Part shown: in pieces, positions 27,305 to 42,243 of the stretch
Layout: the number at the start of each line of letters is the position of its first letter
Position numbering within the stretch: the first letter of the stretch is position 1
NCBI GenBank assembly: GCA_937889515.1
Contig: CALAOV010000141.1
Span: 1 to 56,626 of the forward strand
Reading direction: 5' to 3'
Length of the DNA: 56,626 nt
From: an uncultured Myxococcales bacterium
GTDB lineage: Bacteria > Myxococcota_A > Polyangia > Fen-1088
The notes under the pieces: generated by a model
Databases searched by the model: none
Told to the model about the DNA's origin: nothing
The model's input: only the letters and a program-made list of their open reading frames with translations
Translations under genes and position numbers: made by a program

Positions 27305-28141
27305 TCAGCGCGGTGGGCTCGCGGCGCTCGCGCCAGCCGTCGCGCGCTCGAGCGCGGCCAGTCGGCGCGCCGTGATGAGCAACAGCGCGGCCAGCAGCGC
27401 CAGGAGCACCAGGACAGCCGCCAGCGCGCCCAGCAGGAGCGGGCGCGTGCCCGGGGTGATGCGGATGGGTCCGACGGGGGCGAGCGCCGCCGCCGCGGCC
27501 TCGCCCGGATCCGCGGCCGGCGTCAACACCACGCCGACAGCCGCCGGATCGAGGCCGGCCACGCTGCCCGCGACCAGCTTTTGCACGTCCAGCTCGTGGA
27601 TGGGAGACGGACCGCTGCGGGCCTTGATCAGGACCGCGGCGCGGGCCGGGCTCTTCTGCTTGGCGTCGACCGCCAGCGGATCGCTCTCTTCGAGCACCAG
27701 GTGGACGCGCGCGCTTACGACGCCTTCGACGGTCTCCAGGGTCCGCTCGATCTCCCCGGCGGTCGCGTCGAGATACCGGGCCCGCTCTTCCGACGGCGTC
27801 GGGATGAGACTGGGCTGGCCGTAGGTCTCCGAAAAACCTCGTCGCCGATCCCGCGGCAGGCCGAGGGCGCGCAGGAGATCGACCGCCCGGGTTCCATCGG
27901 CGTTCGCGACGCGGATCGTATAGGTCGCGCCGCCGCCGGTGGCGGCCCCTTCGTCGGGCACCTTCTCGGCGCCGATGCCGGCCCGCTCCAGCGAAGCGGT
28001 CGCCTCGTTTGCCGCGCGCTCGTCGATGCCGTGCAGAATGTTGCTGGTGCACGCCATGGCCGGCAACAGCAGCGCCAGCAGGGTAGCGGGCCACCTGCCC
28101 GCCCGTTCCCCCCCAGCCACGCTAACCACCCTTGGCCTCAT
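27305..28141 (-). CDS. sctJ: Type III secretion inner-membrane ring lipoprotein, SctJ (YscJ/PrgK) family
   Basis: LLPAMACTSNILHGIDERAANEATASLERAGIGAEKVPDEG...PSEERARYLDATAGEIERTLETVEGVVSARVHLVLEESDPL...ARAAVLIKARSG...DVQKLVAGSVAGLDPAAVGVVLTPAADP; lipobox plus C-terminal TM. Confidence 0.88.
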   Translation of the reverse strand: MRPRVVSVAGGERAGRWPATLLALLLPAMACTSNILHGIDERAANEATASLERAGIGAEKVPDEGAATGGGATYTIRVANADGTRAVDLLRALGLPRDRRRGFSETYGQPSLIPTPSEERARYLDATAGEIERTLETVEGVVSARVHLVLEESDPLAVDAKQKSPARAAVLIKARSGPSPIHELDVQKLVAGSVAGLDPAAVGVVLTPAADPGEAAAAALAPVGPIRITPGTRPLLLGALAAVLVLLALLAALLLITARRLAALERATAGASAASPPR

Positions 28142-28161
28142 GGCGGCGTCATAACACGAAG

Positions 28162-28560
28162 TCAGACCTGGGTTCCCATGGTCTGTTTGATCGCGCCGAC
28201 CAACCTGTCCGCGACCCGCGACACCACCTCGACCGTCTGCGAATAGCGGGCCACCGTCGCCTGCATCGCCAGGAGCTCGCCCGGCTTGAAGGTCTTGCCG
28301 CGGGCGGCGGCGTCGAGGAGGGCGTCGATCTGCTTTTCGTTCCCCACCGCGCGTTCCAGCATCGTGCGTATTGGGCTCACGCTTCCTCGCGCCGGCGGCC
28401 GGGTCACCGGCGCCGCGGCGGCCGGTGGCGGTGCTGCCTTTTGCGCAGCCCCGACCCGCTCGTCGAGCACGGCGATGAACGATCGCGCCGACTGCTTCGG
28501 GTGTCCGGACGCCCGCGTCGGGGACGGCCGCCCTCCAGGAGAGCTCGGGGCGATACGCAT
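28162..28560 (-). CDS. sctI: SctI (YscI/HrpB) inner-rod-like protein
   Basis: C-terminal FKPGELLAMQATVARYSQTVEVVSRVADRLVGAIKQTMGTQV fits the YscI C-terminal pattern; immediately upstream of sctJ. N-terminal start uncertain. Confidence 0.7.
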   Translation of the reverse strand: MRIAPSSPGGRPSPTRASGHPKQSARSFIAVLDERVGAAQKAAPPPAAAAPVTRPPARGSVSPIRTMLERAVGNEKQIDALLDAAARGKTFKPGELLAMQATVARYSQTVEVVSRVADRLVGAIKQTMGTQV

Positions 28561-28614
28561 ATCCCGTCATCGGACGCGGGCCCCCGCCGGTTGCGACGAT
28601 TCGACCCGGCGAAG

Positions 28615-29301
28615 CTAGTCCAGCTCGCCGAGCGCGTCCCGGAGCAGATCGACGGCGCGGGCATGGAGGCGGCAAGCCCAGGACTTCGACAGCCCCAGCT
28701 CCGCCCCCGCCTCCTCCAGGTTCTTGTCGGCGAAGTAGTAGAGCTCCATGAGCTTGCGCTCTTTGGGGGGCAAATTGACGACGGCGTCGCGGACCCGCCT
28801 CGAGAGGCGGTGGGTGTCCACGGCCGCGTCGGGCGCCGGGAGACTCTCGTCGGCCACCGTCGACGCCGCCTCGAGCGAGGTGATGTGCACGGTCGCGACG
28901 CCCGATAGGATCTCCTCCACCGCGGCCAGCGCGGCCGCCTGGTCGGCGGGAGTCTCGGACCCCTGCGCGCGCCCGGCCCCCTCGCGGTCGGCGGCGCTGC
29001 GCAGGTACTCGTTGGCCCGTTCCTCGGCGCGATAGCGGGCGTGGTCGGCGCGCGAATACCAGCCCATGGTCCGCAACCCGTCGTACATGGCGCCGCGGAT
29101 CCGGTAGTAGGCGAAGGTCGTGAACGCGACGCCGTGGCGGGCATCGAAGCGCTCGGCCGCCTCCACCAGCCCCTTCGATCCGTAGCCGACCAGATCGTCG
29201 AGCTCGATCGACGCGCCCACGGTCTTCTTCACCTTGCGCGCGATCGCCTGCACCAGCGAAAGGTGCTTTTCGACGAGCTGCTTGGTCTCCGCCGCCGCCA
29301 T
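28615..29301 (-). CDS. Sigma-70 family alternative sigma factor (FliA/WhiG-like architecture)
   Basis: MAAAETKQLVEKHLSLVQAIARKVKKTVGASIELDDLVGYGSKGLVEAAERFDARHGVAFTTFAYYRIRGAMYDGLR... region 4 LPPKERKLMELYYFADKNLEEAGAELGLSKSWACRLHARAVDLLR. Confidence 0.88.
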   Translation of the reverse strand: MAAAETKQLVEKHLSLVQAIARKVKKTVGASIELDDLVGYGSKGLVEAAERFDARHGVAFTTFAYYRIRGAMYDGLRTMGWYSRADHARYRAEERANEYLRSAADREGAGRAQGSETPADQAAALAAVEEILSGVATVHITSLEAASTVADESLPAPDAAVDTHRLSRRVRDAVVNLPPKERKLMELYYFADKNLEEAGAELGLSKSWACRLHARAVDLLRDALGELD

Positions 29302-29363
29302 CCCTTGGGGACTAGACCAAGGGTTGCGCCGCGCCGTCAAGTCCGCATAGTCTTCGCGGGCCA

Positions 29364-30026
29364 ATGCAAAGGTACGTCGAAGCTTCCGCGAAGCATGAAA
29401 ACGCCGGGCGGACGCGCAAGCTGCTCCAGCGGGTGGTGCCCGATCCGATCCTGCACGCACGGTTCGTCAACATGCTCGCGCGGCTCGAATACATCGGCGT
29501 CCGCAAGATCTTGAAGAGCCGGCGTTCCGAACGCCTCGACCTCGACGGGCTCCAGCACATCCTCGACGAGGCGGTGCATGCCCTGCGCCTCAAGAAGGCG
29601 GCGGCGGCGCTGGGCGCTGCCAGCGGCACCGACGTGCGCACGTTCGCGGCCGGGGTCACGCTGGCGGGCGACGCCGCCGAAAACTACCTGCAGGCGCTAG
29701 ATCACCGGGCCGAGGAGGCTCTCGCGGATCTGCCAGAATCCGAACGCGCCGAGGCCAACTACCTTCTGACCAGCGCGGCCGTCGAGGTGCGTGCGCAGGT
29801 CTTTTATCCCATGTACGACCAGACGCTGCGGGCGCACGGCGCGGGGTTTTCGGTGGCGGCCATCACCAAGGACGAGGATCGCCATCTGGAAGAGATGACG
29901 GTCGGCCTGGGGGCGGCGCTGGGCGATTGGCGGCCGCGCCTCGAGCCGGTGCTGGCTGCCGAAGAGGCCCTGTTTTCGCGGTTCCTCGGAGCGCTGGAAA
30001 AGGCGACCGAGATTCCGAATGGCTGA
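29364..30026 (+). CDS. Uncharacterised all-helical protein, predicted ferritin-like diiron fold
   Basis: E41, E68-AV-H71, E140, E170-DR-H173 (two E / ExxH half-sites). Confidence 0.55.
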   Translation: MQRYVEASAKHENAGRTRKLLQRVVPDPILHARFVNMLARLEYIGVRKILKSRRSERLDLDGLQHILDEAVHALRLKKAAAALGAASGTDVRTFAAGVTLAGDAAENYLQALDHRAEEALADLPESERAEANYLLTSAAVEVRAQVFYPMYDQTLRAHGAGFSVAAITKDEDRHLEEMTVGLGAALGDWRPRLEPVLAAEEALFSRFLGALEKATEIPNG

Positions 30027-30987
30027 GTGGAGGACGCTCCCCGCGGCAGATGTCCGCGCCATCCTCGAGTCGTTCGGCATTGCCGGCTACCGTGCGCACC
30101 GGCCGATCCCGGTCGGGACCATCAATACGAATCTCGGGGTCGAGACCGACCAGGGACTGTTTTTTCTGCGCGTGAACGAGGGTAAGTCGCTCGACGACGT
30201 GGTCCGCGAGGCGGCGATCGTCGCGCACGTGGCGGCGCGGGCGGTTCCGACGCCGGCGCCTCTGCAGTCGACCGCCGGTCAGCCGTTCGTCCTGTGGCGC
30301 GACCAGATCGTGTCGCTATTTCCGTGGGTTCCGGGGCGCACGCTGGCCCGGGCGGACCTCGCGCCGGAACAAGCGGCCGCGGTCGGCGCCGCGCTGGCCA
30401 AGCTGCACCTCGCGGGGAGCGACCTTTCCGACCGTCGTCCCGGCCGATACGAGCCCGCCGAGATCGCGCGGCGCCTCGAGCAAATCGCCGGATTGGGCCC
30501 CCCCGAGCTGGCAAATGCGGTGGCGATTCTGGCGCCCGAGCTGGCCCGGCTGGCCCTCGAACGCGCGCCGGAGCTGCCGACGGGCCTCATCCACGGCGAT
30601 CTCTTCATCGACAACGTCCTTTTCACCGACGACGGCCAGCTCGCGGCGTTGATCGACTTCGAGCAGGCGTCCTGGGGCCGACTCGCCTACGACCTGGCGG
30701 TCACCGCGCTCGCCTTCGGATTCGGCCGCGACGATTTCCGCCCCGAGGTCTTCCGTGCGCTCGTCGCCGCCTACGCCGCGGTTCGTCCGCCGACCGCCGA
30801 AGAGCGCGCCGCCTTCGGCGCCGAGCTGCGCTTCGCCGCCTGCCGCTTCGCCATCACCCGCATCACCGACGTCCACCTCAAACAGGGCACCGGCGCCGCC
30901 CCCGGCAAGCGCTACCAGCGCTACCTGGACCGCCTGGCCTGCATCCAGGAGCACCTCGCCGCCGCCGACGGCCTCCTGGCCCTCTAG
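30019..30987 (+). CDS. Homoserine kinase-like / APH-family phosphotransferase
   Basis: TNLGVETDQGLFFLRV, LIHGDLFIDNVLFTDDGQLAALIDFEQASWGRLAYDLAV. Confidence 0.85.
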   Translation: MAEWRTLPAADVRAILESFGIAGYRAHRPIPVGTINTNLGVETDQGLFFLRVNEGKSLDDVVREAAIVAHVAARAVPTPAPLQSTAGQPFVLWRDQIVSLFPWVPGRTLARADLAPEQAAAVGAALAKLHLAGSDLSDRRPGRYEPAEIARRLEQIAGLGPPELANAVAILAPELARLALERAPELPTGLIHGDLFIDNVLFTDDGQLAALIDFEQASWGRLAYDLAVTALAFGFGRDDFRPEVFRALVAAYAAVRPPTAEERAAFGAELRFAACRFAITRITDVHLKQGTGAAPGKRYQRYLDRLACIQEHLAAADGLLAL

Positions 30988-30988
30988 G

Positions 30989-31318
30989 CTATTTTCGAAC
31001 CATGTTGATGTACTTGCGGAGCGTGTCCTTGCGCTCTTCGTCGAGGTCGACGTAGCGGATGCCCATGTCCATCGGCGGCTCGCGGTTGGCCCACACGACC
31101 TCGCCTGTCACCGCGATCGACGCATCGAGATCGGGAAAGTTCAGCACCAGGTCGACCATCGTGCCGACCTCCTCGACGCCCGAGGTCTGGATGCAGACGC
31201 CGCCCAGCGAGATGTTCTGGATGCGGTGGAAGAGCAGGACCTCATTCCCCGTGTAGTCGACATAGGCGTTGACCTCGAACCGGGGGAATTCTCGTGCCTG
31301 CTCAGGGGAGTCGCCCAT
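30989..31318 (-). CDS. PilZ domain protein
   Basis: EFPRFEVNAYVDYTG...IQNISLGGVCIQTSGVEEVGTMVDLVLNFP...VVWANREPPMDMGIRYVDLDEE. Confidence 0.88.
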   Translation of the reverse strand: MGDSPEQAREFPRFEVNAYVDYTGNEVLLFHRIQNISLGGVCIQTSGVEEVGTMVDLVLNFPDLDASIAVTGEVVWANREPPMDMGIRYVDLDEERKDTLRKYINMVRK

Positions 31319-31488
31319 GGTTTTTCACTATCCCAGATCCTCCGGGGGGTCAAAGGTCCTGGTGTCCCGCTTGCCAAACTGGCACGACGCTGCCGACCGG
31401 TGCGACGAACCGGCAGGATGGCCCCCGGGCCGCCCGATGAATCCGGCGGGACTTGCTGGAATGGTTCGTGCATTCCCGCTGGGGTTTG

Positions 31489-31995
31489 ATGATCGACCTC
31501 GATCCCCGCCGTTTGAAGATCGTCGCGCCGAGCGTCCTGGTACTCCTGGTCGCCGGCTCCGCGGGCGGCTGTGCGCACCGGGAGTACTTCCCGGGCACGA
31601 CCATCGTTCGCAGCGACGAGAATCGGAAGATCATCGAGACGGTCGAGAAATACCGGCAGCGGCTGCTGACGCGGAACACGGTCGGGCTCCTGGCGCTGGC
31701 GTCGCAGAAGTACTTCGAGGACTCGGGGACGCCGCGCTCCGACGACGACTACGGGTACGACGGGCTCAAGAAGGTGCTCGAGGTGCGGCTCCAGCGGGTC
31801 AAGTCGCTGCGGTACGAGATCGAGTACCGCAACATCCGGGTGACCGGCGACCAGGCGGAGGTCGAGGTCTTCCTCGACGGATCCTTCGAGCTGGGGGCCG
31901 CCGAGGCGGGTGATCGTTATCGGCGCGTGAACGACTACCACCGTTTCCTGCTCGAAAAAGAGAGCGACGAGTGGAAGTTCGTCGCCGGGATGTGA
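31489..31995 (+). CDS. Putative lipoprotein, NTF2-like
   Basis: MIDLDPRRLKIVAPSVLVLLVAGSAGGCAHRE lipobox; DQAEVEVFLDGSFELG...NDYHRFLLEKESDEWKFVAGM. Confidence 0.65.
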   Translation: MIDLDPRRLKIVAPSVLVLLVAGSAGGCAHREYFPGTTIVRSDENRKIIETVEKYRQRLLTRNTVGLLALASQKYFEDSGTPRSDDDYGYDGLKKVLEVRLQRVKSLRYEIEYRNIRVTGDQAEVEVFLDGSFELGAAEAGDRYRRVNDYHRFLLEKESDEWKFVAGM

Positions 31996-36859: not shown

Positions 36860-39800
36860 CTACTGGCAGACCAGCATGGTCGGATCACATGAGGTCGTCG
36901 CCGGACAGGTGAGCGTACCGGCCGTCGTGTCGCAGCCCCCCGCGCCGTCGCAGGAGAGCGTGAGAAGCTGCGTCCCGTCGGCAGAGCAGGCGGCCCCGCA
37001 GACCGTCGAAGCGCCGTAGTTCTGGCAGCCGCCGGTGCCGTTGCACAGGCCGCTATTGCCACAATTCGCGGCAGGCGATTGAGGCTGGCAGGTCCCGGTC
37101 GGGTCGGCGCCGCCGGGCAGGACGTTGGCGCACGTTCCCTCGGCGCCCGGGACCGCGCAGCTGGTGCAGGAGAGCGGGCAGACCGAAGTGGTGCAGCAGA
37201 CGCCGTCGGTGCAGAACAGGCCCGACTGACACTGGTCGGTGCTGCCGGGCGTGCAGGTGATGCCCATCGAGTTGCGCGGCTTGCAGGTGCCGCCGAGTCC
37301 GGTGCAGTAGGCGGTGGCGACACAGTCGCCGTCCGTGTTGCAGTGGTTGGGGCATCCGGGCGACGCGGTCGTGCAGAGATAGGGGAAGCAGTCGGTGCTG
37401 GCCGCCGAGGGGCAGGTGCCGCCGCCCGAGCAGCTGACCGCGTGGATGAACAGCGAGCCGGAGCAGGAGGACGACCCGCAGCTCACGCTGCTCGACGCCT
37501 GTTCGCAGCGGTTGGCGCCGTCGCACAGGCCGTCGTTGCCGCAGGTTCCGTTGGCGGTGCATTGACCGGTCGGCGCCGGAGACCCCGAGGGTATCGACGC
37601 GCAGATTCCCGTGCTGTTGACGTTGCAAGCCTGACAGGCGCCGCAGCCGTTGGTCGAGCAGCAAACGCCGTCGATACAGTTGCCGCTGGTGCATTCGTGC
37701 CCGGTCCCGCAGGTGGCCCCCAGGCCGTTCTTCGGCGTACAGGTTCCGCTCGTCGTCGAGGTGCAGTAGTCGCCGCCGATGCAGTCCGTGTCGTCGTTGC
37801 AGGTGGTGTTGCAGGCGGTGCTGGAAGCGCAGACGTAGTCGCCGCAATTGCCGGCCGCCGGCGTCACGCAGGTGCCCACGCTCCCGCCGGAGCAGTGCGA
37901 CGCGGCCGTGAAGGTCGCTCCGCTGCAGGTGGCGCCGGGGGCGCAGGCCACGGTCGCGGCGGCCTGGGTGCAGGCGCCGGAGCCGTTGCAGGTTCCGGTG
38001 TTGCCGCAGGTCGTGGTGACCGGGCAGCGGGCATGCGGATCGGCGAGGCCGCCGGTCACGTTGGCGCAGATTCCGCTGCCGCTGGCGCAAGCCTGGCAGG
38101 TCCCGCAGGCGGCGGTGGAACAGCAAACCCCGTCGACGCAATTGCCGCTGTTACATTCGTGGCCGGTCCCGCAGAGGGTTCCGTTGGTCTTGACCGGGAG
38201 GCAACTTCCGCCCGCTGCGGTGCAATAGTTCCCACTCGCGCAGCTGCTGTCGACACCCGTGCAGGTGGTGGTGCAGGCGGTGGCGCCACAGATGTAAGGC
38301 GCGCAGCCCGTGGTCGGCTGGGTCACGCAGCTGCCATTGCTGGCCGTGCCAGAGCAATGCGACACCAGGGTCGCCGTCGAACCGGTGCAGGAGGGTGTTC
38401 CGCAGCTCACGCTGCTGGCGGTCTGGGTGCAGGCGCCCGAGCCGTTGCAGGTTCCGGTGTTCCCGCAGGTCGTGGTGACCGGGCAGCGGGCGTGCGGATC
38501 GTTGAGACCGCCGGTCACGTTGGCGCAAGTCCCGCTGCCGTTGATGTTGCAAGCCTGGCAGGTCCCGCAGGCGTTGGTCGAGCAGCAGACCCCGTCGACG
38601 CAGTTGCCGCTGCCGCACTCGTGGTTGGTGCCGCAGGCGATCCCGAGACCTTTGTCGGCCACGCAGGTCCCGTTCGAGGTGGCCGTGCAGTAGTCGGCGC
38701 CGATGCAGTCCGTGTCCGCCGCGCAGGTGGTCTTGCAGGCGGTGGTAGAAGCGCAGACATAGTCCCCGCAGGTGCCCGCGGCCGGGGTGCTGCAGCTGCC
38801 GGTTCCCGAGCAGAATGGCTGGGCCGTGAAGGTCGCGCCCGAGCAGGTGGGTCCGTTGCAGGGGACCGACGTGCTCGCCTGCTGGCAGGCGCCGCCGCCG
38901 TTGCAAGCCCCGGTGTTGCCGCAGGTCGTGCTGACCGGGCATTGTCCGGTCGGCGCGGCCGTCCCGGTCGGGATCGGCGAGCAGCTCCCGAGGCCGTTGA
39001 CGTTGCACGCCTGGCAGGTGCCGCATGGCCCGCTGCCGCAGCAGACGCCGTCGGTGCACAGGCCGCTGATGCATTGGTTCGCGGCGGCGCAGACCTGGCC
39101 GTTCGGCTTGAGGGCGCAGCTCTTGCTGGATCCCGAGCCCTGGCAGGTGAGCGGCGAGACGCAATCCGTGTCGGCCGTGCAGGTGGTCTTGCAGACCTTG
39201 TTGGTGGTGTCGCAGTTGAAGCCGCCGGAACAGGTCGACGAGGTGGGCGCGGCGCAGCTGCCGCTGCCGCTGCAGTGCGAGATGGGCGTGAAGGTCGTGC
39301 CGCTGCACGACTGGCTCCCGCAGGAGATGCCCGTGCCGGCGAGCTGGCAGGCGCCGGCGCCGTTGCAGGCCCCCGTGTTGCCGCAGGGCGGGTTCGGCGC
39401 GCAGAGACCGTGCGGTTCGGGGGCGTTGGCGGTGACATTGGCGCAGGTGCCCGGGCTCCCCGCGGTATTGCAGGCCTGGCAGGTGTTGCAGGAGCTGGAG
39501 CTGCAGCAGACCCCGTCGACGCAGCTGTCGCCGGTCAGGCAGTCGCCGTTCGCTGTGCAGGCCTGTCCCAGCCGTTTCTTGTTCCCGCAGACGTTGATCT
39601 TGGGGTCACAGATCTCGCCCGAAACGCAATCGCCGTCCACCGAGCAGGCGGCCTTGCAGGCGGTCGATCCGTTGCAGAGGTAGGGGGTGCAGCTGCTGGT
39701 CGTCGCCGCCTGGCAGGCGCCCTTGCCGTCGCAGGTCCGTCCAGAGGTCAGCGTCGAGCTTGCCGCGGGGCAGACCGGCGCCGCGCAGGAGGTGCCGCCC

Positions 39801-42094
39801 GCGTAGAGGCGGCAAGCGCCGTTTCCGTCGCAGAAGCCGTCCGTGCCGCAGCTCGCGTTGCCGGCGTCGTGGCAGGTCGACTGCGGATCCGGCTGGCCGG
39901 CGGCGACGTTGGTGCACGCCCCGAGAGAATTGGAGAGGCCGCAGGACTGACAGGCCCCCTGACAGGCGGTGGCGCAGCAGGTCTGCTGGGAGCAGAAGCC
40001 CGAGGAGCACTCTGGCGCGCCGGCGCAGGTCTGTCCGTTGCTCTTGAGGCCGCAGGAGCCTTTGCTGTTGCAGACCGCGGGCGAAGCGCAGTCGGCGTCG
40101 GAGACGCAGGAGTTCTTGCAGACGTTGAGGCCGCACTGGTACGGGAAGCACGGTCCAGCGCCCGGCGTGACGCATTTCCCGGCGCCGTCGCAGGTCGAGG
40201 CCGCCGTGAACACCGTGGTTCCGCTGGGGCAGCTCGAGCCGATGCAGGTGGTCCCCTGCAAGTACTTCTGACAGCTCCCCGCGCCATCGCACTTGCCGTC
40301 GGTGCCGCAGGAGGCCGTGCCCTGGTCGCTACAGAGCCCCGCCGGATCGACCGCGTTCACCGGGACGCTGGTGCAGGTGCCGAGCGCGTTCGACAGGGCG
40401 CAGGACTGACAGGCTCCGCCGCAGGCGCTGTTGCAGCAGAAGCCCTGGGCGCAGAAGCCGCTGCCGCATTGGGCGGCCGCCGAGCAGGAAGCGCCGTTGG
40501 TCTTGAGGCCGCAGGAGTTCATGGCGCAGCTGTTGGGCGCCTTGCACTGGTCGTTGGTGGCGCAGGCGTTGAAGCACTGCGTGCTGTTGCAAACGTAGGG
40601 GGCACAGGCGCGCGAATCGGGCGCCACGCACTGGCCGTTCATGTTGCAGGTCGAGGCGGGCGTGTACAGGCCGCTCAGACAGGTCTCGGTGGCGCAGACG
40701 GTACCTTGGGGGTAGCTGTCGCAGCTGCCCGTACCGTCACACAGCCCGTTGGTGCCGCAAGACGCTGTCCCCTTGTCGGTGCAGACCTTGCGCGGGTCGG
40801 GGTTTCCGGCCGCGACAGTGAGGCAGTGGCCCGGGGAGGTCGCGAGGTTGCAGCTCCGGCAGGCGCCCGTGCACGCGCTTTCACAACAAACGCCGTCGAC
40901 ACACTGGCTGGAGGCGCACTCGCTGCCGCCGGCGCAGGCGAACCCGATCGGCTTCGGGCCGCAGGTGTTGTTGACGCAAGCGGTTCCGGTGTCGCAGTCG
41001 GATTGGGTCTGGCACGAATTGGTGCAAGCGCCGTCGACGCAGCGGAACGGGTGACAGTCTTGGGCGCCCGGGGGCCGGCAGGTCCCGAGCCCATCGCAGG
41101 TCCCGGCCGTGTTCAGTCGATTGCCGGTACACGACGGCGCCAGGCACTGCACGTCCTTGACGTAGTTGGCGCAGCCACCCACGCCGTCGCAGGTCCCATT
41201 GTGCCCGCAGCTGGGCGCGCCCTTGTCGGTGCAGATCGCGCGGGGATCTGGCTTGCCCGAATCGACCGGCCAGCAGGTGCCCAATCGACCGGGAAGATTG
41301 CAGGCGACGCAGGCCCCTTGGCAGGCGACGTTGCAGCAAACCTTGTCCGCGCAGAATCCCAGGATGCAATCGTCGCTGGTGTCACAGTGCCCGCCGATTC
41401 CCGACTTGCCGCAGCTTTCGGAGGCGAAGTCGCAGGCCTGTCCCGCCGTGCACTGCGCGTTGCTGCTGCATTTCTCGAAGCAATCGCCGGTCGTCGTGTC
41501 GCAGGTATAGGGAAGGCAGAGCAGGGTGACGACCGGTTTGCATTGGCCGGTCCCGTCGCAGGCGTAGGCGCCCACCACCGCGTCGCCATTGCAGGTACCG
41601 CCCATACAGGTGGTTCCGAGGTAATGGCGGCAGCCACCGGAGCCGTCGCAAAGACCGTCGAGCCCACAGGTAGAGCTGGCCTCGGCCGGGCAGTCGGACG
41701 GTTTGCGTGGGTTGCCGCCGGCCGGCAGCTTGACGCAGGTTCCGGGCGAATCCGCCGAAGCGCAGGTCTGGCAGCCGGCAGTGCAGGCGGTGGCGCAGCA
41801 GACGCCATCGGCACAGAAACCGCTGGCGCACTGGGCGTTGCATCCGCACGCGGCGCCCAGGATCCCCGGCGTGCCGCTGGCCGTACATGCGTCCACCGTT
41901 CCGCCGCCGTCGCCGCCGCCCACGTCGGTCTTGGGCTTGCTGTCGGTGGCTGCGTCCGGGCCGCCGTCGGCCTTGGGCGGCGTCGCGTTGTGGTGGCTGC
42001 AGGAGGCCAGAACCCCCATCGCAACCAACGCGGCGGTGAGTACCGCAACGCGCCGAGACCCGCCGTCAATCAAATTCAAGGATTTCATAGTCAT
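36860..42094 (-). CDS. Giant disintegrin-like Cys-rich repeat lipoprotein (1744 aa, 11 units)
   Basis: MKSLNLIDGGSRRVAVLTAALVAMGVLASCSHH lipobox; 11 copies of (F/N)CxDGVCC..C..C..C-type units, about 24 Cys per unit by hand count of one unit. Confidence 0.92.
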   Translation of the reverse strand: MTMKSLNLIDGGSRRVAVLTAALVAMGVLASCSHHNATPPKADGGPDAATDSKPKTDVGGGDGGGTVDACTASGTPGILGAACGCNAQCASGFCADGVCCATACTAGCQTCASADSPGTCVKLPAGGNPRKPSDCPAEASSTCGLDGLCDGSGGCRHYLGTTCMGGTCNGDAVVGAYACDGTGQCKPVVTLLCLPYTCDTTTGDCFEKCSSNAQCTAGQACDFASESCGKSGIGGHCDTSDDCILGFCADKVCCNVACQGACVACNLPGRLGTCWPVDSGKPDPRAICTDKGAPSCGHNGTCDGVGGCANYVKDVQCLAPSCTGNRLNTAGTCDGLGTCRPPGAQDCHPFRCVDGACTNSCQTQSDCDTGTACVNNTCGPKPIGFACAGGSECASSQCVDGVCCESACTGACRSCNLATSPGHCLTVAAGNPDPRKVCTDKGTASCGTNGLCDGTGSCDSYPQGTVCATETCLSGLYTPASTCNMNGQCVAPDSRACAPYVCNSTQCFNACATNDQCKAPNSCAMNSCGLKTNGASCSAAAQCGSGFCAQGFCCNSACGGACQSCALSNALGTCTSVPVNAVDPAGLCSDQGTASCGTDGKCDGAGSCQKYLQGTTCIGSSCPSGTTVFTAASTCDGAGKCVTPGAGPCFPYQCGLNVCKNSCVSDADCASPAVCNSKGSCGLKSNGQTCAGAPECSSGFCSQQTCCATACQGACQSCGLSNSLGACTNVAAGQPDPQSTCHDAGNASCGTDGFCDGNGACRLYAGGTSCAAPVCPAASSTLTSGRTCDGKGACQAATTSSCTPYLCNGSTACKAACSVDGDCVSGEICDPKINVCGNKKRLGQACTANGDCLTGDSCVDGVCCSSSSCNTCQACNTAGSPGTCANVTANAPEPHGLCAPNPPCGNTGACNGAGACQLAGTGISCGSQSCSGTTFTPISHCSGSGSCAAPTSSTCSGGFNCDTTNKVCKTTCTADTDCVSPLTCQGSGSSKSCALKPNGQVCAAANQCISGLCTDGVCCGSGPCGTCQACNVNGLGSCSPIPTGTAAPTGQCPVSTTCGNTGACNGGGACQQASTSVPCNGPTCSGATFTAQPFCSGTGSCSTPAAGTCGDYVCASTTACKTTCAADTDCIGADYCTATSNGTCVADKGLGIACGTNHECGSGNCVDGVCCSTNACGTCQACNINGSGTCANVTGGLNDPHARCPVTTTCGNTGTCNGSGACTQTASSVSCGTPSCTGSTATLVSHCSGTASNGSCVTQPTTGCAPYICGATACTTTCTGVDSSCASGNYCTAAGGSCLPVKTNGTLCGTGHECNSGNCVDGVCCSTAACGTCQACASGSGICANVTGGLADPHARCPVTTTCGNTGTCNGSGACTQAAATVACAPGATCSGATFTAASHCSGGSVGTCVTPAAGNCGDYVCASSTACNTTCNDDTDCIGGDYCTSTTSGTCTPKNGLGATCGTGHECTSGNCIDGVCCSTNGCGACQACNVNSTGICASIPSGSPAPTGQCTANGTCGNDGLCDGANRCEQASSSVSCGSSSCSGSLFIHAVSCSGGGTCPSAASTDCFPYLCTTASPGCPNHCNTDGDCVATAYCTGLGGTCKPRNSMGITCTPGSTDQCQSGLFCTDGVCCTTSVCPLSCTSCAVPGAEGTCANVLPGGADPTGTCQPQSPAANCGNSGLCNGTGGCQNYGASTVCGAACSADGTQLLTLSCDGAGGCDTTAGTLTCPATTSCDPTMLVCQ

Positions 42095-42243
42095 AAGACG
42101 TACGCGCCCACCCTGGTCCCAGTCGCAAAGGTACCATGATGGGAACGCGCGACGCTATCGCCAAGCCCGCCCGTCCTCGACGATCGATCGCCCCCCCCTG
42201 CTGCCCCCTTGATTTTCCCGGCTGAGCTGGCGTAGACCGAACC

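Follow-up and report, generated by a model that had tools for sequence, protein, structure and literature searches.

A three-gene cluster in which a sigma factor gene of FliA/WhiG lineage precedes genes for a likely inner-rod protein (SctI) and an inner-membrane ring lipoprotein (SctJ) was identified in an uncultured Myxococcales bacterium of soil, related to the predatory myxobacteria (GCA_937889515.1), on a contig of 56,626 nucleotides (CALAOV010000141.1, hereafter C141) that was analyzed at its full length and is referred to here as the window. We judge it reasonably probable that the locus is the basal-body module of a dispersed, needle-less non-flagellar type III secretion system (NF-T3SS) of the "Myxo" type, led by a non-flagellar member of the FliA/WhiG sigma lineage. 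The sigma-led sctI-sctJ arrangement seems to be conserved in many related lineages and not to have been described before; a literature search, whose coverage was incomplete, returned no earlier description of the sigma-sct link. The novelty lies in the dispersal of the genes and in this link, while the machine itself is known.

The source genome is fragmented and probably metagenome-assembled (5.16 Mb, 402 contigs, 92% complete). The comparison covered the three genomes of the genus, the congener G001 among others, the family to which the organism belongs (f1), and other families with labels up to f21. Complete SctV, SctL, and SctQ sequences were taken from congeners.

The three-gene locus and its products

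The first-pass annotation had described three minus-strand genes in tight order with no other T3SS gene in the window, and both points hold. The intergenic gaps measure 54 nt (sigma-SctI) and 20 nt (SctI-SctJ), a scan of the locus found no terminator-like site on the strand carrying the genes, and local profiles of SctN, SctL, SctQ, SctV, FliO, SctR, SctS, SctT, and SctU matched nothing in the window. The features of the locus are as follows.

29311..29340, minus strand: promoter-like element TTGACG-N18-TCTAGT, nine bases 5' of the sigma start codon (conservation)
28615..29301, minus strand: sigma factor of the FliA/WhiG family, 228 aa, first gene of the module (TIGR02479; Pfam Sigma70_r2 and r4; tree)
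28162..28560, minus strand: SctI-like inner-rod protein, 132 aa, with a disordered N-terminus and a C-terminal helical hairpin (NF038054; position; codon constraint)
28168..28284, minus strand: conserved C-terminal inner-rod helix of SctI, residues 93-131 (alignment; model)
27305..28141, minus strand: SctJ inner-membrane ring lipoprotein, 278 aa (PF01514, TIGR02544; PrgK by profile and fold)
28049..28060, minus strand: SctJ lipobox AMA-C31 (sequence; the cysteine is kept in most aligned relatives)
27368..27448, minus strand: SctJ C-terminal transmembrane helix, about residues 232-258 (sequence; model helix 230-273)

All three open reading frames are coding. Comparison with congener G001 gave differences at the first, second, and third codon positions of 12/5/57 for the sigma gene, 25/13/46 for the SctI gene, and 27/14/89 for the SctJ gene, and such an excess at third positions points to purifying selection. 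Within SctI, the C-terminal half differs by 6/0/18, with zero second-position changes across 65 codons. Elsewhere in the window, at 36860-42139, very long reading frames of 1744 and 1686 aa overlap on opposite strands along 5 kb; this region probably encodes a repetitive, compositionally biased protein.

The identity of SctJ is certain, as the earlier description of a YscJ/PrgK-family lipoprotein had it. The protein passes the Pfam YscJ_FliF model (PF01514, 71 bits against a cut-off of 24.4), and its best model in the curated set, TIGR02544, scores 147.4 bits, below the cut-off of 161.95. A profile built from 20 members retrieved Salmonella PrgK at E 8e-31 and flagellar FliF at best at 2e-22. 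A fold search with the AlphaFold model (pLDDT 84; helix 230-273) likewise placed PrgK first (E 1e-13), with PrgK, MxiJ, and EscJ ranked ahead of FliF. SctJ thus resembles PrgK, EscJ, and MxiJ in fold, lipobox, and C-terminal transmembrane helix, at an identity of about 24-31%.

Assignment of 28162..28560 as SctI is likely and draws strongly on position; the protein falls under every curated cut-off. Taken by itself, the sequence match is weak: the curated profile NF038054 gives 21 bits (E 2.6e-4) against a cut-off of 39, and five of the nine aligned family members match the SctI family loosely. The structural match that had been proposed as a check did not appear, in that profile and Foldseek searches returned no significant PDB entry and FliE emerged only at E 1.7. 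Context supports the claim. A blind SctI-family scan of 97 genomes yielded 18 weak matches, 10 of which, the six best included, adjoin the sigma gene or sctJ, and the orthologue in G025 matches Pfam PF17001 (T3SS_basalb_I) at E 1.1e-5 and the NCBIfam SctI model at 2.8e-5. Aligned members share the C-terminal pattern LLALQ..v.RYsQ.vEv.SR..DRlvGAiKQtLgTQ, a pattern characteristic of inner-rod C-termini. The predicted model combines a disordered N-terminus with a confident C-terminal hairpin (helix at residues 93-131, where pLDDT averages about 90 per block as far as residue 130). The C-terminal helix pattern is common to PrgJ, YscI, and the protein described here, whose disordered N-terminus is unlike that of known rods.

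Lineage, neighborhood, and promoter of the sigma factor

The FliA/WhiG assignment made for 28615..29301 is borne out by a match to TIGR02479 (E 2e-41, 142.2 bits) and by Pfam regions 2 and 4, which, together with the TIGR02937 sigma-70 superfamily model, exceed their cut-offs. These traits are common to the FliA/WhiG sigma-28 family; unlike that family, the protein remains below the curated TIGR02479 cut-off of 189.6, and the sct genes carry no FliA-type promoters upstream. In a tree, the sigma factors of the module form a clade of their own (SH-aLRT 100), separate from the flagellar FliA of the same genomes, where clade members had been chosen as best matches and monophyly was tested against flagellar FliA and a few other sequences only. 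The flagellum-less genome encodes a second FliA/WhiG-like sigma factor on contig C31 (L254:3985-4794) that falls nearer the flagellar FliA clade.

Gene order, whose comparison across Myxococcota had been proposed earlier as a check, is conserved. Within f1, every one of the 17 genomes that gave a sigma match shows the order sigma-(sctI)-sctJ, SctI being missing between sigma and SctJ in genera g2, g4, g5, and g6. Outside f1, the sigma gene adjoins sctI or sctJ in f2, f3, f10, f13, f14, f16, f17, f20, and f21, which brings the arrangement to about 30 of 43 clade genomes in about ten families. In f13, f14, and f17, sctI stays with the sigma gene while sctJ has moved away, and in f21 sigma and sctI are convergent. 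A non-flagellar SctJ or SctV is present in every one of the 43 genomes with a member of the sigma clade, a co-occurrence that carries less weight because NF-T3SS genes are widespread in the class. Several T3SS lineages (e.g., f11) show no clear member of the clade, and in f12 the sigma gene lies away from sctI and sctJ, beside kinase-like and SnoaL-like genes.

Genes for a kinase-like APH protein, a PilZ protein, and a SnoaL-like lipoprotein also stay near the sigma gene (window 29364-31995; L239, L243, L244, L246, L249), and this neighborhood recurs in several families, even at sites lacking sctI and sctJ. In families f3, f9, f16, and f20, a small multihaem-cytochrome-like gene with a CytoC_RC domain lies upstream of sctJ in opposite orientation.

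L064:9132-9485, L075:9023-9496, L068:9036-9389, and L061:6468-6818: CytoC_RC genes upstream of sctJ

Upstream of the sigma gene, the element TTGAC(G)-N17/18-TCTA(G/T)T, exact or slightly altered, occurs in 16 of the 17 f1 loci, where 9 to about 18 nt separate its end from the start codon, and the 17th has a weaker form; an element with two or fewer mismatches precedes 24 of 375 other genes. A generic consensus promoter scan missed the element at 29311..29340 because its second hexamer is TCTAGT, so the element at the sigma gene is defined by its conservation alone. The sctR operon is preceded by TTGACA-N18-GTATAA at a similar distance from the start, and sctV of congener G001 by a TTGAC-type element, also at a similar distance. 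This spacing suggests that the sigma, sctR, and sctV mRNAs may be nearly leaderless and issue from ordinary promoters. A sigma-28-like motif had been envisaged upstream of the other sct genes. The FliA-type motif (TAAA-N14..16-GCCGATAA) is no better represented before sct operons than before the 375 other genes, and the sigma operon itself carries the TTGAC-type promoter. The sigma factor is therefore probably not the switch of the core sct operons.

A dispersed export apparatus

Absence of any export apparatus from the genome would have undone the original proposal of an outlying T3SS part, but components were recovered on other contigs.

L006:10822-16228 (contig C160): FliO-sctR-sctS-sctT...sctU, directly behind the ribosomal protein operon

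The genes preceding this locus are rpoA, rplQ, and a PilZ gene, and three genes for unknown secreted or lipoprotein-like products are inserted before sctU, of which only the N-terminal part is present. The C-terminal end of SctV lies at the edge of contig C301, SctL-SctN are encoded on C90, and SctQ on C332. With C141, the system thus occupies at least five separate contigs, and relatives with long contigs likewise have their N, Q, and V loci at separate places.

Curated models place most of these proteins on the non-flagellar side. SctR is over the SctR cut-off and under that of FliP, SctN reaches 606 bits (cut-off 604.75) and does not pass the FliI model, and SctV of congener G001 passes the SctV model and does not reach that of FlhA. 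SctT and SctU score best as non-flagellar, as do SctL and SctQ, the latter two below cut-offs; SctS is ambiguous, scoring slightly better as FliQ. The SctV proteins of congeners fall outside the flagellar FlhA clade (SH-aLRT 100) and follow the lineage tree. No flagellar FliF, FliM/FliN pair, or FlhA was found in the source genome, and the three genomes of the genus have one FlhA/SctV and one FliMN-type protein, with no FliF found. Most other f1 members possess a full flagellar set as well (FliF, FliM/FliN, FlhA, and their own FliA).

The 92% complete genome contains two secretins only, one in a Tad locus and one with a GspD N0 domain in a type II locus. The Tad/Flp pilus locus (C60, L007:8067-16763) encodes RcpC, a secretin, a ParA-like protein, a TadA-type ATPase, two T2SSF proteins, a TPR protein, and TadE. 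No SctD was found over the cut-off, FHA domains being the only related feature; the best conserved candidate was an FHA-DUF4388 protein and was rejected as SctD. No protein matched the needle family PF09392 over the cut-off, and needle-like C-termini exist below it. On contig C390 (L255:2462-4092), an LcrH/SycD-type chaperone gene (TIGR02552 E 2.2e-12, under the cut-off; PcrH E 2.4e-6) lies 11 bases before a gene for a 400-aa protein. That protein, with its long Pro/Ala/Thr-rich middle and a last 42 residues that weakly match the needle family (E 0.026), is a candidate T3SS substrate. A conserved two-gene unit in two families (L305:2881-3833 and L306:3821-4696), met with in G001 and G026, encodes a second, shorter kind of such protein: the first product, of 142-186 aa, has a C-terminus resembling needle subunits (PF09392 E 5e-4 for L306), and the small product of the next gene has 123-125 aa. 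The needle-like proteins of C390 and of this unit are leads and no proof of a needle.

Relation to the Myxococcus system and alternative readings

The needle-less "Myxo" NF-T3SS is known from Myxococcus xanthus (MXAN_2434-2464) and other Cystobacterineae (PMC3459982, PMC10433427, PMC12075869). In M. xanthus, the Tad-like Kil pilus recruits this T3SS*, which has neither secretin nor needle, to sites of contact with prey, and lysis of the prey requires the T3SS* (PMC10433427, PMC12075869). The system described here has in common with it SctJ, SctRSTUV, SctN, SctL, SctQ, FliO, the last already known in non-flagellar T3SS of Myxococcota (PMC12403147), and a likely SctI. A dedicated secretin is likewise lacking and no standard needle was found over the cut-off, while a Tad locus and a chaperone of LcrH/SycD type are encoded at other places in the genome. 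It differs in that a FliA-family sigma gene leads sctI-sctJ and in having FHA-domain proteins only instead of a full SctD. Whereas the Cystobacterineae system forms one conserved cluster, the genes here are dispersed, and we therefore count the system as a variant of the Myxo T3SS*. The earlier suggestion of an outlying part of an unusual T3SS thus stands as regards a scattered, non-flagellar system; the machine is largely of the known needle-less type.

A plausible course of assembly can be drawn from homology. Transcription from the TTGAC-type promoter at the start codon would place sigma, SctI, and SctJ on a single mRNA with a short leader. Lipidated SctJ would form a periplasmic ring around the SctRST/U/V export gate, and SctI, exported through the gate, would pack as the inner rod, with SctN powering the process together with SctL and SctQ. 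Because the core sct operons lack the sigma-28 motif, the genes activated by the sigma factor would be a later set other than these, most likely substrates and chaperones; a role dedicated to the T3SS alone, as the first-pass annotation had it, is conjectural. Crossing of the outer membrane may require the Tad pilus, as in M. xanthus; by that analogy, a similar division of labor between T3SS* and Tad is possible.

The link between sigma factor and secretion system can be questioned while the T3SS module is accepted as real. The sigma factor may be an old neighbor with another regulon, such as surface motility, and the shared promoter a convenience of gene order; we regard this as unlikely, although worth serious consideration. 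It would explain why the sigma gene keeps its APH, PilZ, and SnoaL-like neighbors at sites without sctI or sctJ (L243, L244, L246, L249) and why no sigma-28 motif precedes the sct operons, and SigF of M. xanthus regulates S-motility, according to PMC9548883, which cites Ueki 2005. It sits poorly with the NF-T3SS in every genome that has a sigma-clade member and with sctI remaining beside the sigma gene where sctJ has moved or the orientation is reversed. A tighter coupling, marked by the pairing of sigma with SctI and analogous to flagellar FliA-FlgM in a non-flagellar machine, is improbable in our estimate: the rod or a dedicated anti-sigma factor would be exported through the finished gate, freeing the sigma factor to turn on late genes. 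Those genes would then include needle-like exported proteins encoded elsewhere, and the T3SS* would not be needle-less in these lineages.

Two further readings dispute the module itself. Scattered genes, the lack of a secretin, needle, or full SctD over cut-off, and the missing SctI at the site in some relatives could signal decay of a non-working T3SS, but purifying selection on all three genes, retention of the complete export apparatus together with ATPase, stator, and C-ring, either in this genome or in congeners, and an SctV that follows the lineage tree make this very improbable; PMC3459982 argues likewise against a non-working remnant in Cystobacterineae. Derivation of the genes from a broken flagellum (FliF-like ring, FliE-like rod, FliA) could draw on the FliO homologue before SctR, the FliQ-leaning SctS, and the FliA-like sigma factor, yet we reject it on trees and profile scores and consider it extremely improbable. 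SctJ, a short lipoprotein, resembles PrgK more than FliF, flagellated f1 members carry their flagellar genes in addition, SctV and the sigma factor fall outside the flagellar clades, and FliO has precedent in the NF-T3SS of Myxococcota (PMC12403147).

The T3SS* has been proposed as a stage in evolution between flagellum and injectisome, and it contributes to prey lysis by myxobacteria. Under our preferred reading of a sigma-led basal-body module, a sigma factor whose gene adjoins that of the inner rod or of the ring in about ten families offers a handle on T3SS* regulation, and its regulon should list substrates. The arrangement suggests that FliO was not the only flagellar element retained as the machine diverged from the flagellum, a regulator of flagellar type having been retained too. 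It also extends the machine to uncultured, flagellum-less families and so widens the range of candidate predators; a single-protein scan of named genomes recovered six peat or permafrost MAGs.
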